This document shows, in pieces, positions 13,321 through 55,800 of a DNA stretch of 60,522 nt (its first letter is position 1; the number at the start of each line of letters is the position of its first letter). Both the position numbers and the translations under genes were made by a program. A model generated the notes under the pieces. It was not told the origin of the DNA, searched no databases, and was given only the letters and a program-made list of their open reading frames with translations. Origin of the DNA: Lachnospiraceae bacterium (GTDB lineage: Bacteria > Bacillota > Clostridia > Lachnospirales > Lachnospiraceae); contig JAGCUO010000196.1 of the NCBI GenBank assembly GCA_017962825.1, positions 1-60,522 of the forward strand, read 5' to 3'.

Positions 13321-15411
13321 ATGTACAAGAAGTATGAATTGGACCTTGCCGGAAAAAAGCTTGTCGTAGATATCGACAGAGTCGGCAAACAGGCTAACGG
13401 TTGTGCTCTTATGCACTACGGTGATACCACCGTTCTTGCTACCGCAACCGCATCAAGTGCTCCCAGAGACGGAATCGATTTCTTCCCTCTTTCTGTTGAG
13501 TACGAAGAGAAGTTCTACGCAGTAGGAAAACTTCCCGGAGGTTTTAATAAGCGTGAGGGTAAGGCAAGTGAGAATGCTATTCTCACCAGCCGTGTTATCG
13601 ACCGCCCCATGAGACCTCTTTTCCCCAAGGATTACAGAAACGACGTTACTCTTGACTGCATGGTCATGAGCGTTGATCCCGAGTGCAGACCCGAGCTTGT
13701 TGCCATGCTTGGCGCATCCATCGCTACCTGCATCTCCGATATTCCTTTTGACGGCCCCTGCTCAATGACTCAGGTAGGTATGAAGGACGGCGAGTTCGTT
13801 ATCAATCCTTCTCAGGAAATCTGGGATAAGGGTGACCTTAAGCTTACCGTTGCTTCAACCAAGCAGAAGGTTATCATGATCGAGGCAGGCGCTAACGAGA
13901 TCCCCGAGGAGAAGATGCTTGAGGCTATCTACAAGGCTCACGACATCAACCAGACCGTTATCGCATTTATCGACAAGATCGTAGCAGAGTGCGGAAAGGC
14001 TAAGCACGAGTACACCTCATGTGCAATCCCCGCAGAGATGTTCGAGAAGATGAAGGAGATCGTTCCTCCCGCTGAGATGGAGACTGCTGTCTTCACCGAT
14101 GACAAGCAGACCAGAGAGGGCAACATCGCCGAGATCACCGAGCGTCTTAAGGAAGCTTTCGCAGAGAACGAAGATTACCTTGCAGTTCTCGGCGAGGCAG
14201 TATATCAGTATGAGAAGAAGACCGTCAGAAAGATGATCCTCAAGGATCACAAGAGACCCGACGGACGTGAGATCACCCAGATCAGACCTCTTGCTGCTGA
14301 GGTAGATATCATTCCCAGAGTCCACGGTTCAGCTATGTTCACCAGAGGACAGACTCAGATCTGTGACGTATGTACCCTTGCTCCTCTTTCAGAGGCACAG
14401 CGTGTTGAAGGACTTGATCCTTACGTTACCGAGAAGAGATACATCCATCAGTATAATTTCCCCTCATATTCGGTTGGTGAGACCAAGGTAAGCCGCGGTC
14501 CCGGACGTCGTGAGATCGGACACGGAGCTCTTGCAGAGCGTGCCCTTCTTCCCGTTCTTCCCAGCCCTGAGGAGTTCCCTTATGCCATCAGATGCGTATC
14601 CGAGACCTTCGAGTCCAACGGATCCACTTCAATGGCTTCTACCTGCGCATCCTGCATGTCTCTCATGGCAGCAGGTGTACCCATCAAGAAGATGGTTGCA
14701 GGTATTTCTTGCGGACTTGTAACCGGTGAGACCGATGACGATTTCGTTCTCCTCACCGACATCCAGGGTCTCGAGGACTTCTTCGGAGACATGGACTTTA
14801 AGGTTACCGGTACCACCGAAGGTATCACCGCAATTCAGATGGACATTAAGATCCACGGTCTTACCAGACCTATCGTTGAAGGTGCTATCGCAAGATGCCG
14901 TGAAGCCAGACTCTTCATCATGGACACCTGCATGAAGCCCGCTATCGCAGCTCCCAGAGCTGAGGTCGGACAGTATGCTCCCAAGATCGTATCCATCAAC
15001 ATCGATCCCGAGAAGATCGGCGATGTTGTCGGACAGCGCGGCAAGACCATCAACGAGATCATCGCTCGCACCGGTGTTAAGATCGACATCGATGAAAGCG
15101 GAAGAGTTGATATCTGCGGAACCGACAAAGAGGGTATGGACAAGGCCATCGAGATGGTTCAGATCATTACCACCGAGTTCGCAGAGGGACAGGTTCTCAA
15201 GGGAAAGGTTGTCTCCATCAAAGAGTTCGGAGCATTCGTTGAGTTTGCACCCGGCAAGGAAGGCATGGTTCACATCTCCAAGATCGCTAAGGAGAGAGTT
15301 GAGCATGTAGAAGATTACCTGACACTCGGTGATGTTGTCACCGTTAAGTGCCTTGGTAAGGATAAGATGGGACGTATCAGCTTCTCCATGAAGGACGTTG
15401 CCCAGAACTAA
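13321..15411 (+). CDS. pnp: Polyribonucleotide nucleotidyltransferase (PNPase)
   Basis: Phosphorolytic 3'-5' exoribonuclease, 696 residues, normal length. Two RNase PH domains (about 1-225 with DRPMRPLFPK, and about 305-550) flank a helical domain; a KH domain (IGDVVGQRGKTINEI) and a C-terminal S1 domain (VSIKEFGAFVEFAPGKEGMVHIS) bind RNA. AAGGAGG precedes the ATG. It follows rpsO, has its own structured leader, and ends at a strong terminator. Confidence 0.97.
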   Translation: MYKKYELDLAGKKLVVDIDRVGKQANGCALMHYGDTTVLATATASSAPRDGIDFFPLSVEYEEKFYAVGKLPGGFNKREGKASENAILTSRVIDRPMRPLFPKDYRNDVTLDCMVMSVDPECRPELVAMLGASIATCISDIPFDGPCSMTQVGMKDGEFVINPSQEIWDKGDLKLTVASTKQKVIMIEAGANEIPEEKMLEAIYKAHDINQTVIAFIDKIVAECGKAKHEYTSCAIPAEMFEKMKEIVPPAEMETAVFTDDKQTREGNIAEITERLKEAFAENEDYLAVLGEAVYQYEKKTVRKMILKDHKRPDGREITQIRPLAAEVDIIPRVHGSAMFTRGQTQICDVCTLAPLSEAQRVEGLDPYVTEKRYIHQYNFPSYSVGETKVSRGPGRREIGHGALAERALLPVLPSPEEFPYAIRCVSETFESNGSTSMASTCASCMSLMAAGVPIKKMVAGISCGLVTGETDDDFVLLTDIQGLEDFFGDMDFKVTGTTEGITAIQMDIKIHGLTRPIVEGAIARCREARLFIMDTCMKPAIAAPRAEVGQYAPKIVSINIDPEKIGDVVGQRGKTINEIIARTGVKIDIDESGRVDICGTDKEGMDKAIEMVQIITTEFAEGQVLKGKVVSIKEFGAFVEFAPGKEGMVHISKIAKERVEHVEDYLTLGDVVTVKCLGKDKMGRISFSMKDVAQN

Positions 15412-15426
15412 TCTATCGGCGCATGG

Positions 15427-15457
15427 AAGGGCCCTGTATTTATCAGGGCCCTTTTTC
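15427..15457 (+). terminator. Rho-independent terminator of pnp
   Basis: AAGGGCCCTG (15427-15436) pairs with CAGGGCCCTT (15444-15453) around a 7-nt loop and is followed by a T run. Confidence 0.92.
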
Positions 15458-15500
15458 TATAATCCGGAATGGTGGTTTAGGTAGATATCAGGAAGGGATG

Positions 15501-16084
15501 GGGCTGTAAAAAAGCCGGAAATGCATTGAATTACAGTCCGCATAGCCTGATAGGGCCGCCAAAGATGGGGATAGGGCTGTAGAAAAGCATGAAATGCCTT
15601 GATTTACAGTCCGGGTAGCTTAAATAGGTCCTCCAAGGGCAGGTAATGGCTGTAGAAATGCTGGAAATGGCTGAAATTACAGCCCCGGTGGCCGGAAAAG
15701 CTCTCCAAAGGTCTGAAATGGACTGTAAAAATGCAATAAAAGCCGGAAATTATAGCCCCGGAAGCTTAGAAATAAGCAACTGTGGAATGGCAGGGCTATA
15801 AAATATCCTAAGAAGCCGTAAATTATAGCCCCGGCAGTTGAGAAATAAGCAACTGAGGATCAGCAGGGCAATAAAACATCCTAAGAAGCCGTAAATTATC
15901 GCCCCGGCAGCTTAGAAATAAGCAACCAAGGATTGTCAGGGCTATAAAACTTCCTAAGAAGCCGGAGATTATAGCCCCGGAAGCTTGAAAATGAGCAACC
16001 AAGGATTGTCAGGGCTATAAAATATCCTAAGAAGCCGTAAATTATAGCCCCGGCAGCTGAAAATGAGCAACTAAGGTGAGATAA
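15501..16084 (+). repeat. Eight tandem 73-bp units, each with a 39-nt hairpin
   Basis: This 700-base gap between pnp and the next gene is filled by eight units starting at 15501, 15574, 15647, 15720, 15793, 15866, 15939 and 16012, an exact 73-bp period. Each unit begins with a 39-nt inverted repeat: 9-nt arms (for example GGGCTATAA and TTATAGCCC) around a 21-nt loop. The sixth stem position changes from G-C in units 1-3 to A-T in units 5-8, with wobble G-T in unit 4. The 34-nt linker often carries a small GCTTA-GAAA-TAAGC type hairpin. Units 5-8 are near identical while 1-4 are diverged, yet no unit has an indel. 73 is not a multiple of 3 and no frame is conserved, so it is non-coding. Its function is unknown. 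Confidence 0.93.
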
Positions 16085-16114: not shown

Positions 16115-17143
16115 ATGTTTGGTTATACGACCGTAAATAAACCCGAGATGAAGTTTAAAGAGTACGATCTGTATCATTCGTACTACTGTGGTTTGTGTAC
16201 CGTTTTGAAGAAGAAGTTTGGCCTTACGGGAGAATTTACTCTTTCTTATGACGGTGCTTTTTTGTGCAGTCTTCTGTGTGATCTGTATGATGCGCAGGAC
16301 GATATATCCGAAAGAAGATGTGCGGTTCATCCCGGAGTTAAACATGTTATCAGAACTAATGTGGTAACGGATTATGCCGCTGACATGAACGCTCTTATGG
16401 CAATGTTCAAATGTCAGGATGACTGGCATGACGATAAAAAACTTTCGGGGAAGATATTATCCGGTCTCTTAAACGGAAAGACCAAATCAATTCGCGATAA
16501 ATACGCTGATAAGATTGCTGTTATCACGAAAGCAATCGATGACATGAACGAGATAGAAAAAAGCGGAAAGCCGGATCCCGAGGGTATGGCGTTTCTCTTT
16601 GGAAAATGCATGAGCGAAGTCTATGCATATAAAAATGATGAGTGGGAAAAATATCTGAGAGTATTCGGAGACAGACTCGGAAGAGTAGTGTATCTCATGG
16701 ATGCCTATGAGGATGTATATTCCGATATAAAAAAAGGCAGATACAATCCCTATTCCGATGTGTATGAAAGAAATGATTTCGAAGGACTTGCACGTGAAAT
16801 GATAACAGTGCACCTGGAGGAAGCATGCATCGCTTTTGAAAAACTTCCTCTTATCGAGAACGTTGATTTCCTGAGAAATATTCTTTATTCCGGAATATGG
16901 ATCAGATTCAATATAGCGGCGGGTAAGAGATCAGGCAGTACTCCCGCATCTCCGGAAAAGAATTCGAAGCCTGATGTTGATGATGCTTCCGAAAAGAAGA
17001 CAGAAAAAACTTCGGATAACTCCTCCGAAAAAACATCGGAAACATCGGCGGATAAAACTTCTGAAATAACCACGGAAGAAACGTCTGAAATAAAATCTGA
17101 CTCAGATTTAAAAAATGAAAAGGAAGAAGGAGGACAGTCATGA
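16115..17143 (+). CDS. DUF5685-like protein of unknown function
   Basis: 342 residues, cytoplasmic, no signal or membrane segment. The N-terminal block [20 protein letters not shown] followed by [14 protein letters not shown] near residue 25 resembles the Clostridia family DUF5685. A helical body follows, with acidic patches [19 protein letters not shown] near 195 that recall the DxxxD metal sites of all-helical enzymes, but no activity can be assigned. The last 60 residues are a Ser/Thr/Glu/Lys repeat (SEKT, TSE units) and probably disordered. The J-domain gene starts 4 bp before its stop, so the two are coupled. The 73-bp repeat array lies directly upstream. Confidence 0.7.
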
Positions 17144-53967: not shown

Positions 53968-55800
53968 TTGAGCAGACATAAGAAGAAAAACAGGAAGAAC
54001 AACGCTTCACAGACAAGTGAAGAGATCAAGAACACGGTAACGGATGAAGTGACCGAAGAGGAAATCTCATCCGAAACTGAAACCGAAGCGGAAGAGACGG
54101 ATTCCGAAGAAAACGTAACCGAAGGATCCGCATCCGAAGAAGTACCCGCAGAAGATGATTCAACCGAAGTGTCTTCCGAGGAGGTATCTGACGAGGAACA
54201 GCCTTCCGAAGAAGAAACGCCTTCCGCCGAAACTCAGGAAGATGATGATGTCCGGGAAGCTTTAGCTTCTGCGGAGGATGAAGATTCCGAGGATAAGACA
54301 TCCGAAGAAAAAACTTCCGAAGAAAAAGATTCTAAGCCGGAAAAATCCCCGGAAAAAGAGAAAAAAGAAAAGAAAGTCAGCCGTGATGCTCTCAGGGAAC
54401 AGACCGAGAATGAGAGACTGAGACGTGAAGCCAGACACAGAAAGCGTATCCGTCAGCAGGTTACCGCATATGTGATACTGGTTATTATTCTTGCGCTCAT
54501 CGGATGCGGTCTCTTTTTCGGGATAAAGTTTTTTGTAAATATAGCCAGGGAGAGAAGAGCGGCGCAGGCGGCAGCGGAGCTTGAAGCTCAGCAGCAGCTC
54601 GAAGCTCAGGCACAGGAGCAGGCTCAGACTGAGCCCGTAAACGAAGAGCCTCCCGCACCCACTGTTGAAGACCTCGGACCTACACCCATGGAGCAGCTTG
54701 ATGCACTTATCGCTTCCGATATCTCATCAATGACTCTCGAAGAGAAGATCCAGGGGCTCATGTTCATAACCCCCGAATCGATCACGCACGTTGACCGTGT
54801 AATGATCGCAGGTGAAGGAACCGCAGCGGCGCTTTCAGACTTTTGCCCGGGCGGAATAATCTATTCCGCAAAAAATGTATCAAATGCAAACCAGTTCTCC
54901 GAAATGATGGCTACAACTTCAACTCTTGTAAGCCGTCCCGTGTTCCTCGCAACATCCGAGACGGGACTTAACGAGTCCGGACTTGTGGGAGCAGGAGTGA
55001 TCACTTCATCCATGACACCTGCGGATGCGGCCGCAACGGGCGATGTAGAGCAGGTTGTTAATGTAGGTATAAATGTCGGCGTTGGACTTCACAGCGTGGG
55101 AATTACGGTTGATTTTGCCCCTGTAGCGGACCTTTCCGTTACCGCAGGCGGAATCGGTGCAAATGCGACATACGGAAACGATGCTGCGGCAATCACGCCC
55201 TATGTAACGGCAATGGCGGACGGACTTATGCAGTCGGGCGTAACACCTGTCTACAGATATTTCCCCAGCCTTGCGGCATGCGGCCAGAATCCTCTCTGGG
55301 GAAGAGCCGTAAGTGACAGAAGCATCGAAGATTTCAGAAGCAACGAGTTCCAGGTATGGCTTTCCGCGATAAATGCAGGAGCTTCAATGATCCAGATGAG
55401 TAATGTCATCTATCCCTCCATCGACAGTGATTCCCTTCCTTCATCACTTTCGGACAAGACCGTAACGGGTGTCCTTCGTGATGAGCTTAAGTACGACGGA
55501 GTCATCATAAGCGGACCTTTGAGTGACGCTGCGATCACATCGTATTATACGGCCTCTGATGCGGCCGTAATGGCCCTTAAAGCGGGATGTGACATGATTT
55601 ATTCATCTCCCGATCCCAGAGCCGCAGTACAGGGCATTTTGGACGCTGTAGCGGAAGGCGTTATCTCAGAGCAGAGAATTGACGATGCGCTGACAAGAAT
55701 CTACAGAGTAAGATATGCCGATGAGCTCGAAAGACTCAGAGGAGAGTATGAACAGGCTGCTGCTTCCATGGGAGTCGATCTCACCGGAGTTCAGTATTGA
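53968..55800 (+). CDS. Membrane-anchored GH3/NagZ-like protein, probably inactive
   Basis: 610 residues, TTG start after AAGGAGCTGAG. A long cytoplasmic Glu/Ser/Thr-rich acidic region (about 10-130) and a basic stretch precede one membrane helix (about 164-190). A Gln/Ala/Glu-rich spacer follows, then a GH3 N-terminal barrel (about 245-590) outside the cell. NagZ landmarks are changed: KHFPGHG is YRYFPSLAA near 429, and the nucleophile motif VxxSDDL is VIISGPL near 512, so the nucleophile Asp is Gly. The EGGR region is also lost. It probably binds peptidoglycan or another glycan rather than cutting it. Confidence 0.75.
   Translation: MSRHKKKNRKNNASQTSEEIKNTVTDEVTEEEISSETETEAEETDSEENVTEGSASEEVPAEDDSTEVSSEEVSDEEQPSEEETPSAETQEDDDVREALASAEDEDSEDKTSEEKTSEEKDSKPEKSPEKEKKEKKVSRDALREQTENERLRREARHRKRIRQQVTAYVILVIILALIGCGLFFGIKFFVNIARERRAAQAAAELEAQQQLEAQAQEQAQTEPVNEEPPAPTVEDLGPTPMEQLDALIASDISSMTLEEKIQGLMFITPESITHVDRVMIAGEGTAAALSDFCPGGIIYSAKNVSNANQFSEMMATTSTLVSRPVFLATSETGLNESGLVGAGVITSSMTPADAAATGDVEQVVNVGINVGVGLHSVGITVDFAPVADLSVTAGGIGANATYGNDAAAITPYVTAMADGLMQSGVTPVYRYFPSLAACGQNPLWGRAVSDRSIEDFRSNEFQVWLSAINAGASMIQMSNVIYPSIDSDSLPSSLSDKTVTGVLRDELKYDGVIISGPLSDAAITSYYTASDAAVMALKAGCDMIYSSPDPRAAVQGILDAVAEGVISEQRIDDALTRIYRVRYADELERLRGEYEQAAASMGVDLTGVQY

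Follow-up and report, generated by a model that had tools for sequence, protein, structure and literature searches.

The array of eight 73-bp repeats at positions 15501 to 16084 of a contig from a rumen-type Lachnospiraceae bacterium is probably a helically phased set of palindromic binding sites that acts at the DNA level, forming the cis half of a two-component system whose other half would be a putative dedicated partner protein. The stretch analysed, hereafter the window, covers 60,522 nucleotides (contig JAGCUO010000196.1). An initial annotation had offered two readings of the array, small structured RNAs or phased protein binding; our analysis of the array and its relatives favors the second as a prediction, since unit length and helical register are kept where spacer sequence is lost, with a register common to loops, arms and spacers.

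The array in the window

The eight units start at 15501, 15574, 15647, 15720, 15793, 15866, 15939 and 16012, each comprising a dyad of 39 bp and an interspacer of 34 bp, and no strand is assigned to the array. Every dyad is, as described in the annotation, a 39-nt inverted repeat with 9-nt arms and a 21-nt loop. Unit 1 (15501–15539, R1 36.9 bits) carries the half-sites GGGCTGTAA and TTACAGTCC and is followed by units 2 (15574–15612, R1 33.3 bits) and 3 (15647–15685, R1 37.9 bits). The half-sites of unit 4 are mixed, GGACTGTAA and TTATAGCCC (15720–15758, R1 37.3 bits), while unit 5 joins GGGCTATAA to TTATAGCCC (15793–15831, R1 42.2 bits). Units 6 (15866–15904, R1 36.9 bits), 7 (15939–15977, R1 42.0 bits) and 8 (16012–16050, R1 42.2 bits) complete the series; the tail 3' of the last dyad is one base shorter than that of unit 7, so the reported absence of indels holds for the dyads but not for this tail. 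TRF independently returned a period of 73 in two rows (15494–15669 and 15740–16076).

Stem position 6 reads G-C in units 1-3, G-T in unit 4 and A-T in units 5, 7 and 8, as first noted. The accompanying proposal that pairing is maintained stands where arrays are compared with one another, through covariation, but units 4 and 6 each hold one A.C mismatch. The division into near-identical units 5-8 and diverged units 1-4 was too strong: the groups are 1-3 and 4-8, with 48-51 of 73 positions identical among units 1-3, 55-56 between unit 4 and units 5-7, and 58-64 among units 5-7. The array is beyond chance. At 73/7 bp its A+T power reaches 22.9, whereas none of 589 other 584-bp segments taken from the window exceeds 7.7; these controls are not tandem repeats, and the comparison between harmonics given below is the fairer one.

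The array begins 3' of a terminator-like hairpin of pnp, read from the sequence on the forward strand at 15429–15456 (GGGCCCTG, 7 nt, CAGGGCCC, then a T run), pnp itself ending with its stop at 15411. Relatives have this hairpin at the same place, and it is absent from the list of a consensus scanner. On the 3' side lie a DUF5685 gene (16115–17143) and then a J-domain gene. The array is thus located upstream of a J-domain operon, as annotated, but this position is not specific, as arrays adjoin unrelated genes elsewhere. A link to the J-domain/DUF5685 operon was rejected on the same ground, and relatives with the first gene of the operon have one unit or none. Across the array, no Rfam family reached its gathering score and a promoter scan found no promoter. 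Two further observations concern repeats: TRF alone reports a short 15-bp tandem repeat at 54274–54327 of the window, and many arrays, among the window array and L141-L180, contain in their loops and at interspacer ends a recurrent motif that resembles GCTTCTGAGGA or AGCAACTGAGGA or is the complement of such a sequence.

Half-sites and spacing

Searches by DNA similarity found more 73-bp arrays in the genome of the window (G000) and in genomes of the same genus. What these arrays have in common is a pair of inverted half-sites (GGCTATAA, GGCTGTAA, GGCTAATAA) and a set of lengths, 37 for the outer distance and 36 for the interspacer, and nothing else. Half-sites fall into three classes, CTATA (A), CTAAT or CTAAA (B) and CTGTA (C). 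Among 198 distinct units in 38 arrays, 67 are A/A, 32 join TAATAA to TAATAA and 42 are C/C, with 15 more carrying a TGTAG arm; TAAAA arms pair with either kind, and in none of the 198 is TATAA joined to TAATAA. Half-sites vary within arrays, and neighboring spacers are often related.

The arms covary between arrays, with 86.3% of cells paired and double changes at 6 of 10 pairs. At position 2 of class C half-sites, G-C occurs 23 times, G.T 22, A.C 9 and A-T 4; from these counts, the partners vary independently and A.C, which pairs poorly in RNA, is frequent. Counted across positions 1-8, G.T (49 cells) is in mild excess over A.C (28), although cells within an array are not independent.

Spacing is nearly exact: of 172 adjacent pairs, 155 are 73 bp apart, 10 are 72 and 5 are 74, with 220 and 221 found once each. 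Neighboring interspacers are less than 50% identical in 40 of 135 comparisons (random pairs being 31% identical), and even here the spacing of about 73 bp persists where spacer similarity is gone, with 73 (32 cases) or 72 (8) before these diverged interspacers and 73 (28), 72 (10) and 220 or 221 (2) after them. In one degenerate array, neighboring units are 62 and 83 bp apart, about six and about eight turns. At L142:3549-3881 the units are all spaced 74 bp apart, which makes this array a drifted form of the 73-bp type.

Helical register and predicted curvature

The annotation had remarked that 73 bp is close to seven helical turns, and base composition bears this out. With half-site columns removed (153 units, 35 arrays; the L153 and L155 arrays were excluded from the phase analyses), the strongest A+T component is the seventh harmonic of 73, equivalent to 10.43 bp, with an amplitude of 0.095; the second strongest of the 20 harmonics reaches 0.046. 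The phase is common to the arrays (concentration R 0.95 over 35 arrays, or 0.94 over 21 when each orthologous locus contributes a single array), a value reached in none of 5000 column shuffles and none of 5000 rotations. Loops, interspacers and arms share it, and A/T and G/C dinucleotides run in antiphase. Since A+T oscillates seven times per unit with a common phase, the signal belongs to the DNA helix, contrary to the RNA reading. Base identity between arrays is barely above expectation (0.307 vs 0.258; 0.545 vs 0.511 given that both bases are A/T), suggesting that shared ancestry explains little of the register. A+T power exceeded the 95th percentile of 766 control segments, which are not tandem repeats, in all 35 arrays.

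The register extends to other lineages. Seven other species, outside the 31 genus genomes as far as their handles tell, were compared: four have an A+T signal with shuffle p <0.05, all in the same phase, while the signals of RGIG507, RUG13451 and UBA3772 fall short of p 0.05 and the phase of UBA3772 differs. Moreover, fifteen units of a class with different arms, GGCTAAG (described below), have the same A+T phase (1.89 vs 1.66 rad). Outside the 73-bp class the register is weaker, which speaks against the preferred reading: the helical harmonic ranks first in 9 of 33 arrays, and several 53-bp arrays have A+T in antiphase to the dyad centre. For the other classes, the mean direction relative to the dyad centre is -0.05 rad (R 0.45, 23 rows). 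The arrays are also predicted from wedge values to be strongly curved, the end-to-end ratio being 0.787 for arrays, 0.889 for their own shuffles and 0.953 for flanks, and curvature exceeding that of the shuffles in 27 of 29 arrays.

Dispersal and distribution

Arrays are dispersed within genomes. G000 holds at least 18 on 17 contigs, and the related isolate P6A3 (G001) at least 15 plus two single units; a covariance model built from 46 units matches at least 147 times in G000 and at least 149 times in P6A3, mostly in 73-bp series. Exact single units number 80 in P6A3, 37 in G000, 29 in G017, 10 in G015, 6 in G026 and 1 in G002; the pattern has no match in G016, G007 or G023, and its reversed control none in any of the nine genomes. 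Homologous arrays, expected in Lachnospiraceae, were thus found by both covariance-model and pattern searches. At E 1e-5 the model matches in 5 of 31 genus genomes, which are the closest to the window's genome by pnp (99-100%; 26 of the 31 have a pnp match), the next full-length pnp sequences being 96-97% identical. A strict two-unit pattern, narrower than the covariance model and not reached by the one unit of G002, found 40 stretches among 84,980 species genomes, spread over 12 of them (11 bear Lachnospiraceae in the title, the other Eubacterium sp.), and occurred in 1 of 397 family genomes. Exact 20-nt matches in G003, G018, G019 and others were set aside as chance, lying in the first part of the coding sequence of a conserved gene, presumably efp. 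A phage origin was likewise rejected: viral contigs contained neither a strict two-unit array nor a relative of the partner protein.

Array neighbors are diverse and include polA, recD2, ychF, a BtuF/FecCD pair and GH10/Mntp. The array between the BtuF-like and FecCD genes (L144:3607-4154), which run in the same direction, starts 9 nt past the first of them, and a cobalamin riboswitch lies farther upstream (L144:91-298). A first tally, in which none of 36 arrays with both neighbors called lay between divergent genes, was discarded because the caller had missed comEC. With a length-based caller, 3 of 37 arrays fall between divergent genes, small ORFs of doubtful status being involved in two of these; in P6A3, one array separates the divergent mscL and comEC.

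Change between relatives

At the pnp site, five relatives carry 8, 7, 5 (plus one degenerate), 1 and 0 units, and outgroup sequences with pnp-site synteny, among the matches listed, have none. Eleven loci, orthologous by their neighbors (74-99% identical), bear arrays in both G000 and P6A3. Half-site classes at these loci differ wholesale between the two species: of the 176 half-sites in the units retrieved from G000, 123 belong to class C and none to class B, while the 198 from P6A3 include 99 of class B and none of class C. Such a wholesale change at orthologous sites suggests a trans-acting reader. In addition, comEC and the nuclease-like gene belong to a 3.4-kb segment, bounded by arrays at either end, that has opposite orientations in G000 and P6A3 (L148:3436-7750, L165:3050-7400), and the flanking arrays may act as recombination points.

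The candidate partner gene

In RGIG507, RUG13451 and Tb.RUG.144, the only array among the matches listed sits between comEC and a second gene, here called the partner gene; its homologue in G000 and in P6A3, where it lies at L165:6103-6921, is likewise 3' of comEC and abuts an array. Homologues at E 1e-10 occur in 15 of 31 genus genomes and 95 of 299 family genomes. G015 and G026 (MAGs, 84% and 80% complete) have arrays and no homologue at this threshold; arrays may persist there without the gene, or a homologue may have been missed.

Tandem arrays (period 45-160) lie beside 33 of 54 distinct homologue loci, as opposed to 3 of 34 controls (Fisher 5e-7), these three being known arrays that the pnp control includes. 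The 54 loci derive from 55 homologue rows among the matches listed (25 from the genus and 30 from the family search), in which one locus appears twice, as L215 and L243; L217 and L230 probably represent fragments of a single gene. Counting palindrome-bearing arrays only, the figure is 26 of 54 (Fisher 8e-5), as 7 loci have an array without a palindrome in the consensus unit; the remaining 21 of 54 loci have no tandem array at the threshold used. A dyad falls inside the repeat unit in 40 of 62 TRF rows (8.5 expected), palindrome sequences differ between homologue loci, and the array is upstream of the partner gene in 27 of 34 rows.

Periods of these arrays cluster near whole turns. Taking one array per locus (33 rows, 30 of them below 100 bp), periods below 100 bp are 51-54 (8 loci), 62-64 (11), 73-74 (10) and 84 (1), a quantisation of R 0.90 against a null maximum of 0.59 in 2000; extra TRF rows lie at 45, 48, 69 and 90 bp, some probably coding. 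Period class also follows a tree of 31 proteins, changing 5 times compared with a mean of 15.5 after shuffling (0 of 200 shuffles as low), though such clustering is partly expected because close relatives are included. The tree comprises the rows with a period, without L233 (no palindrome), the fragments L217/L230 and the duplicate L243, and with the 108 bp of L219 entered as 2 x 54. Eight of the nine proteins with arrays of about 73 bp form one group with support 100/100.

An adjacent palindrome predicted dispersed copies elsewhere, a prediction borne out for one arm class. In G103 and G119, the partner gene is flanked by GGCTAAG palindromes, and the pattern GGCTAAGN{23}CTTAGCC finds 37 and 30 exact units there, on 9 and 10 contigs and mostly in 73-bp series, of which 30 and 25 lie off the contigs of the genes that had suggested it (L242 and L245). 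Neither this pattern in ten other genomes, three of the window's genus, nor the reversed control gave any match. Elsewhere, TTGATGC-type palindromes at 62 or 84 bp occur beside the homologues L231 (G001:C5:141010), L238 (G017) and L218 (G020); P6A3 and G017 carry two kinds of palindrome because further homologues have their own TTGATGC-type palindromes. In RM5, a 53-bp CGAATAG array (9.9 copies, 1587-2112) is nested in a 73-bp GGCTATAA array (L128:1345-2206).

The candidate partner protein

We call the partner protein PD-(D/E)XK-like, and its nuclease assignment is weak. The C-terminal ~115 aa match the PADLOC PDC-S68 candidate defence proteins at 8e-16 to 9e-29; these strongest profile matches have names that do not say nuclease. 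PDDEXK-named models match weakly, with HEAT_CxxC_PDDEXK at 8.4e-6 at best (3 of 4 proteins) and PD_DExK at 0.004 (1 of 4). No match was found in Pfam for two homologues, in NCBIfam for one and in PHROGs for four. Across 53 aligned rows, one locus appearing twice, RSKxE, YE, the DF of PDF and EHxG are held in common, with the Asp of PDF, the Glu of EHxG and the Glu of RSKxE invariant, while the usual lysine of the ExK position is missing. An AlphaFold model from 4 rows has a mean pLDDT of 54.6, with most of the C-terminal half below 50, and is confident only for residues 1-100 (a helix, two strands and a long helix). No PDB relative was found by sequence or, with this low-confidence model, by fold (E 0.001), and the top fold matches were discarded as coiled-coil-like and insignificant. 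Identity between the G000 and P6A3 proteins is 69% over the first 150 residues and 90% over the next 120; an N-terminal part that sets the changing specificity would fit this pattern, but the divergence is unexceptional locally, neighboring comEC being 74% identical.

Alternative explanations

The strongest rival, which overlaps with the preferred reading and which we consider a serious possibility though short of an even chance, is a selfish REPIN-like element, in which the protein mobilises or amplifies arrays and the phase reflects its mode of binding, with no host function. Dispersed copies that match a gene flanked by the same palindrome recall REP/RAYT, as described in PMC2817692 and PMC3116915, and the variable unit number at the pnp site points the same way. 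However, 11 of 18 G000 arrays stand at places that also have an array in P6A3, indicating that array movement is slow, and the spacing constraint in diverged arrays suggests use after amplification. A general DNA-wrapping protein such as gyrase, reading arrays that are strong wrapping sites and manage supercoils or nucleoid folding, a role suggested for BIME-2, beside an incidental neighbor gene, is an unlikely reader. The strong predicted curvature suits it, and the E. coli gyrase motif, according to PMC6379681, spans 130 bp with GC content periodic at 10.75 bp, its authors proposing that A/T faces the protein, and is over-represented in BIME-2 (see also PMC12393610). Our arrays resemble it in being intergenic and in a helical phasing of A/T and G/C content that extends beyond 100 bp, but differ in their 10.43 bp per turn (a weak argument), sequence-specific half-sites and lineage-specific palindromes. 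Gyrase leaves unexplained both half-site classes that differ by genome and homologue-specific palindromes and period classes that track the protein tree.

An array of small structured RNAs, the other reading first offered, is very improbable. Although the covarying arms would suit it, palindromic DNA sites give arm covariation likewise, and the independence of position 2, the occurrence of A.C as well as G.T, the lack of an Rfam match at gathering score, the placement of the window array 3' of a terminator-like hairpin, and near-exact spacing with a helical A+T register across unpaired stretches all count against it. Ordinary neutral slippage, yielding a minisatellite, is as a sole explanation if anything still less credible: copy number does differ at the same locus and many neighboring units are close copies, but drift would neither preserve 72-74 bp once spacers no longer resemble one another, nor quantise the periods of unrelated arrays, nor align A+T phase across unrelated spacers.

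Comparison with known systems

The system is best read as resembling REP/RAYT in outline while being unrelated to it. Both comprise dispersed extragenic palindromes, often in arrays, and a dedicated gene flanked by the same palindrome (PMC2817692, PMC3116915); here, however, the partner is PD-(D/E)XK-like, the period is tied to whole helical turns, and half-sites of 8-13 bp surround a long loop instead of forming the compact hairpin of a REP. A GTAG-type tetranucleotide is conserved neither beside the dyad (143 units) nor within half-sites, and the REP table of PMC2817692 shows that GTAG is not present in every REP. The Y1 transposase PF01797 was rejected as partner: it is found in 6 of 15 genomes, including arrayless G002, and has no match in array-bearing G015, G017, G026, RM5, RUG12797 and RGIG10340.

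Plasmid centromeres of the sopC type consist of tandem fixed-length units, each with an inverted repeat, bound by a dedicated protein at a single plasmid locus. Our arrays are alike in their fixed-length units with an inverted repeat and unlike in their many chromosomal loci and nuclease-like partner; no ParB-like domain was found among the neighboring proteins scanned. MIRU/VNTR minisatellites are dispersed intergenic tandem repeats of 50-100 bp with varying copy number and near-identical units, whereas the arrays described here keep mainly half-sites and lengths. They also differ from CRISPR, with its identical repeats and unrelated spacers, in that half-sites vary within an array and neighboring spacers are often related.

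Proposed mechanism and significance

Under the preferred reading of a phased binding-site array, the geometry of the units would set the mode of binding. Half-site centres are about 29 bp apart, inverted, and recur every seven helical turns; A+T-rich steps come once per turn in a single register through the unit, and the design is repeated at many intergenic places. The partner protein, a candidate reader of the palindrome by its adjacency, which is no proof, would bind half-sites as a dimer or oligomer along one face of a curved, wrapped array. Less certainly, it might also cut, with repair then amplifying units and converting half-sites, which would explain the wholesale half-site change between species. 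The outcome could be a benefit to the host, through nucleoid or supercoil organisation, or selfish persistence. More speculatively, and as a tentative extension rather than our expectation, a widespread Lachnospiraceae system can be envisaged whose PD-(D/E)XK-like proteins would each write and maintain a chromosome-wide set of curved, phased palindrome arrays of their own, reading a half-site and a whole number of turns (5, 6, 7 or 8), while cutting and repair seed, amplify and convert units in concert; the result would be satellite DNA maintained by a protein, with a possible role in organising the nucleoid.

The array and its partner protein point to a previously undescribed system; no description was found in listings of open-access PMC text. 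Sequence similarity or hairpins are the usual explanation for dispersed bacterial repeats. Geometry, namely whole helical turns and a phase signal in DNA that is otherwise mostly without similarity, is what these arrays conserve. If confirmed, the protein-DNA system would join a nuclease-like protein to chromosomal arrays that evolve along with it, and its natural variants, with periods of about 53, 63, 73 and 84 bp and many palindromes, would make specificity, wrapping and concerted evolution testable.
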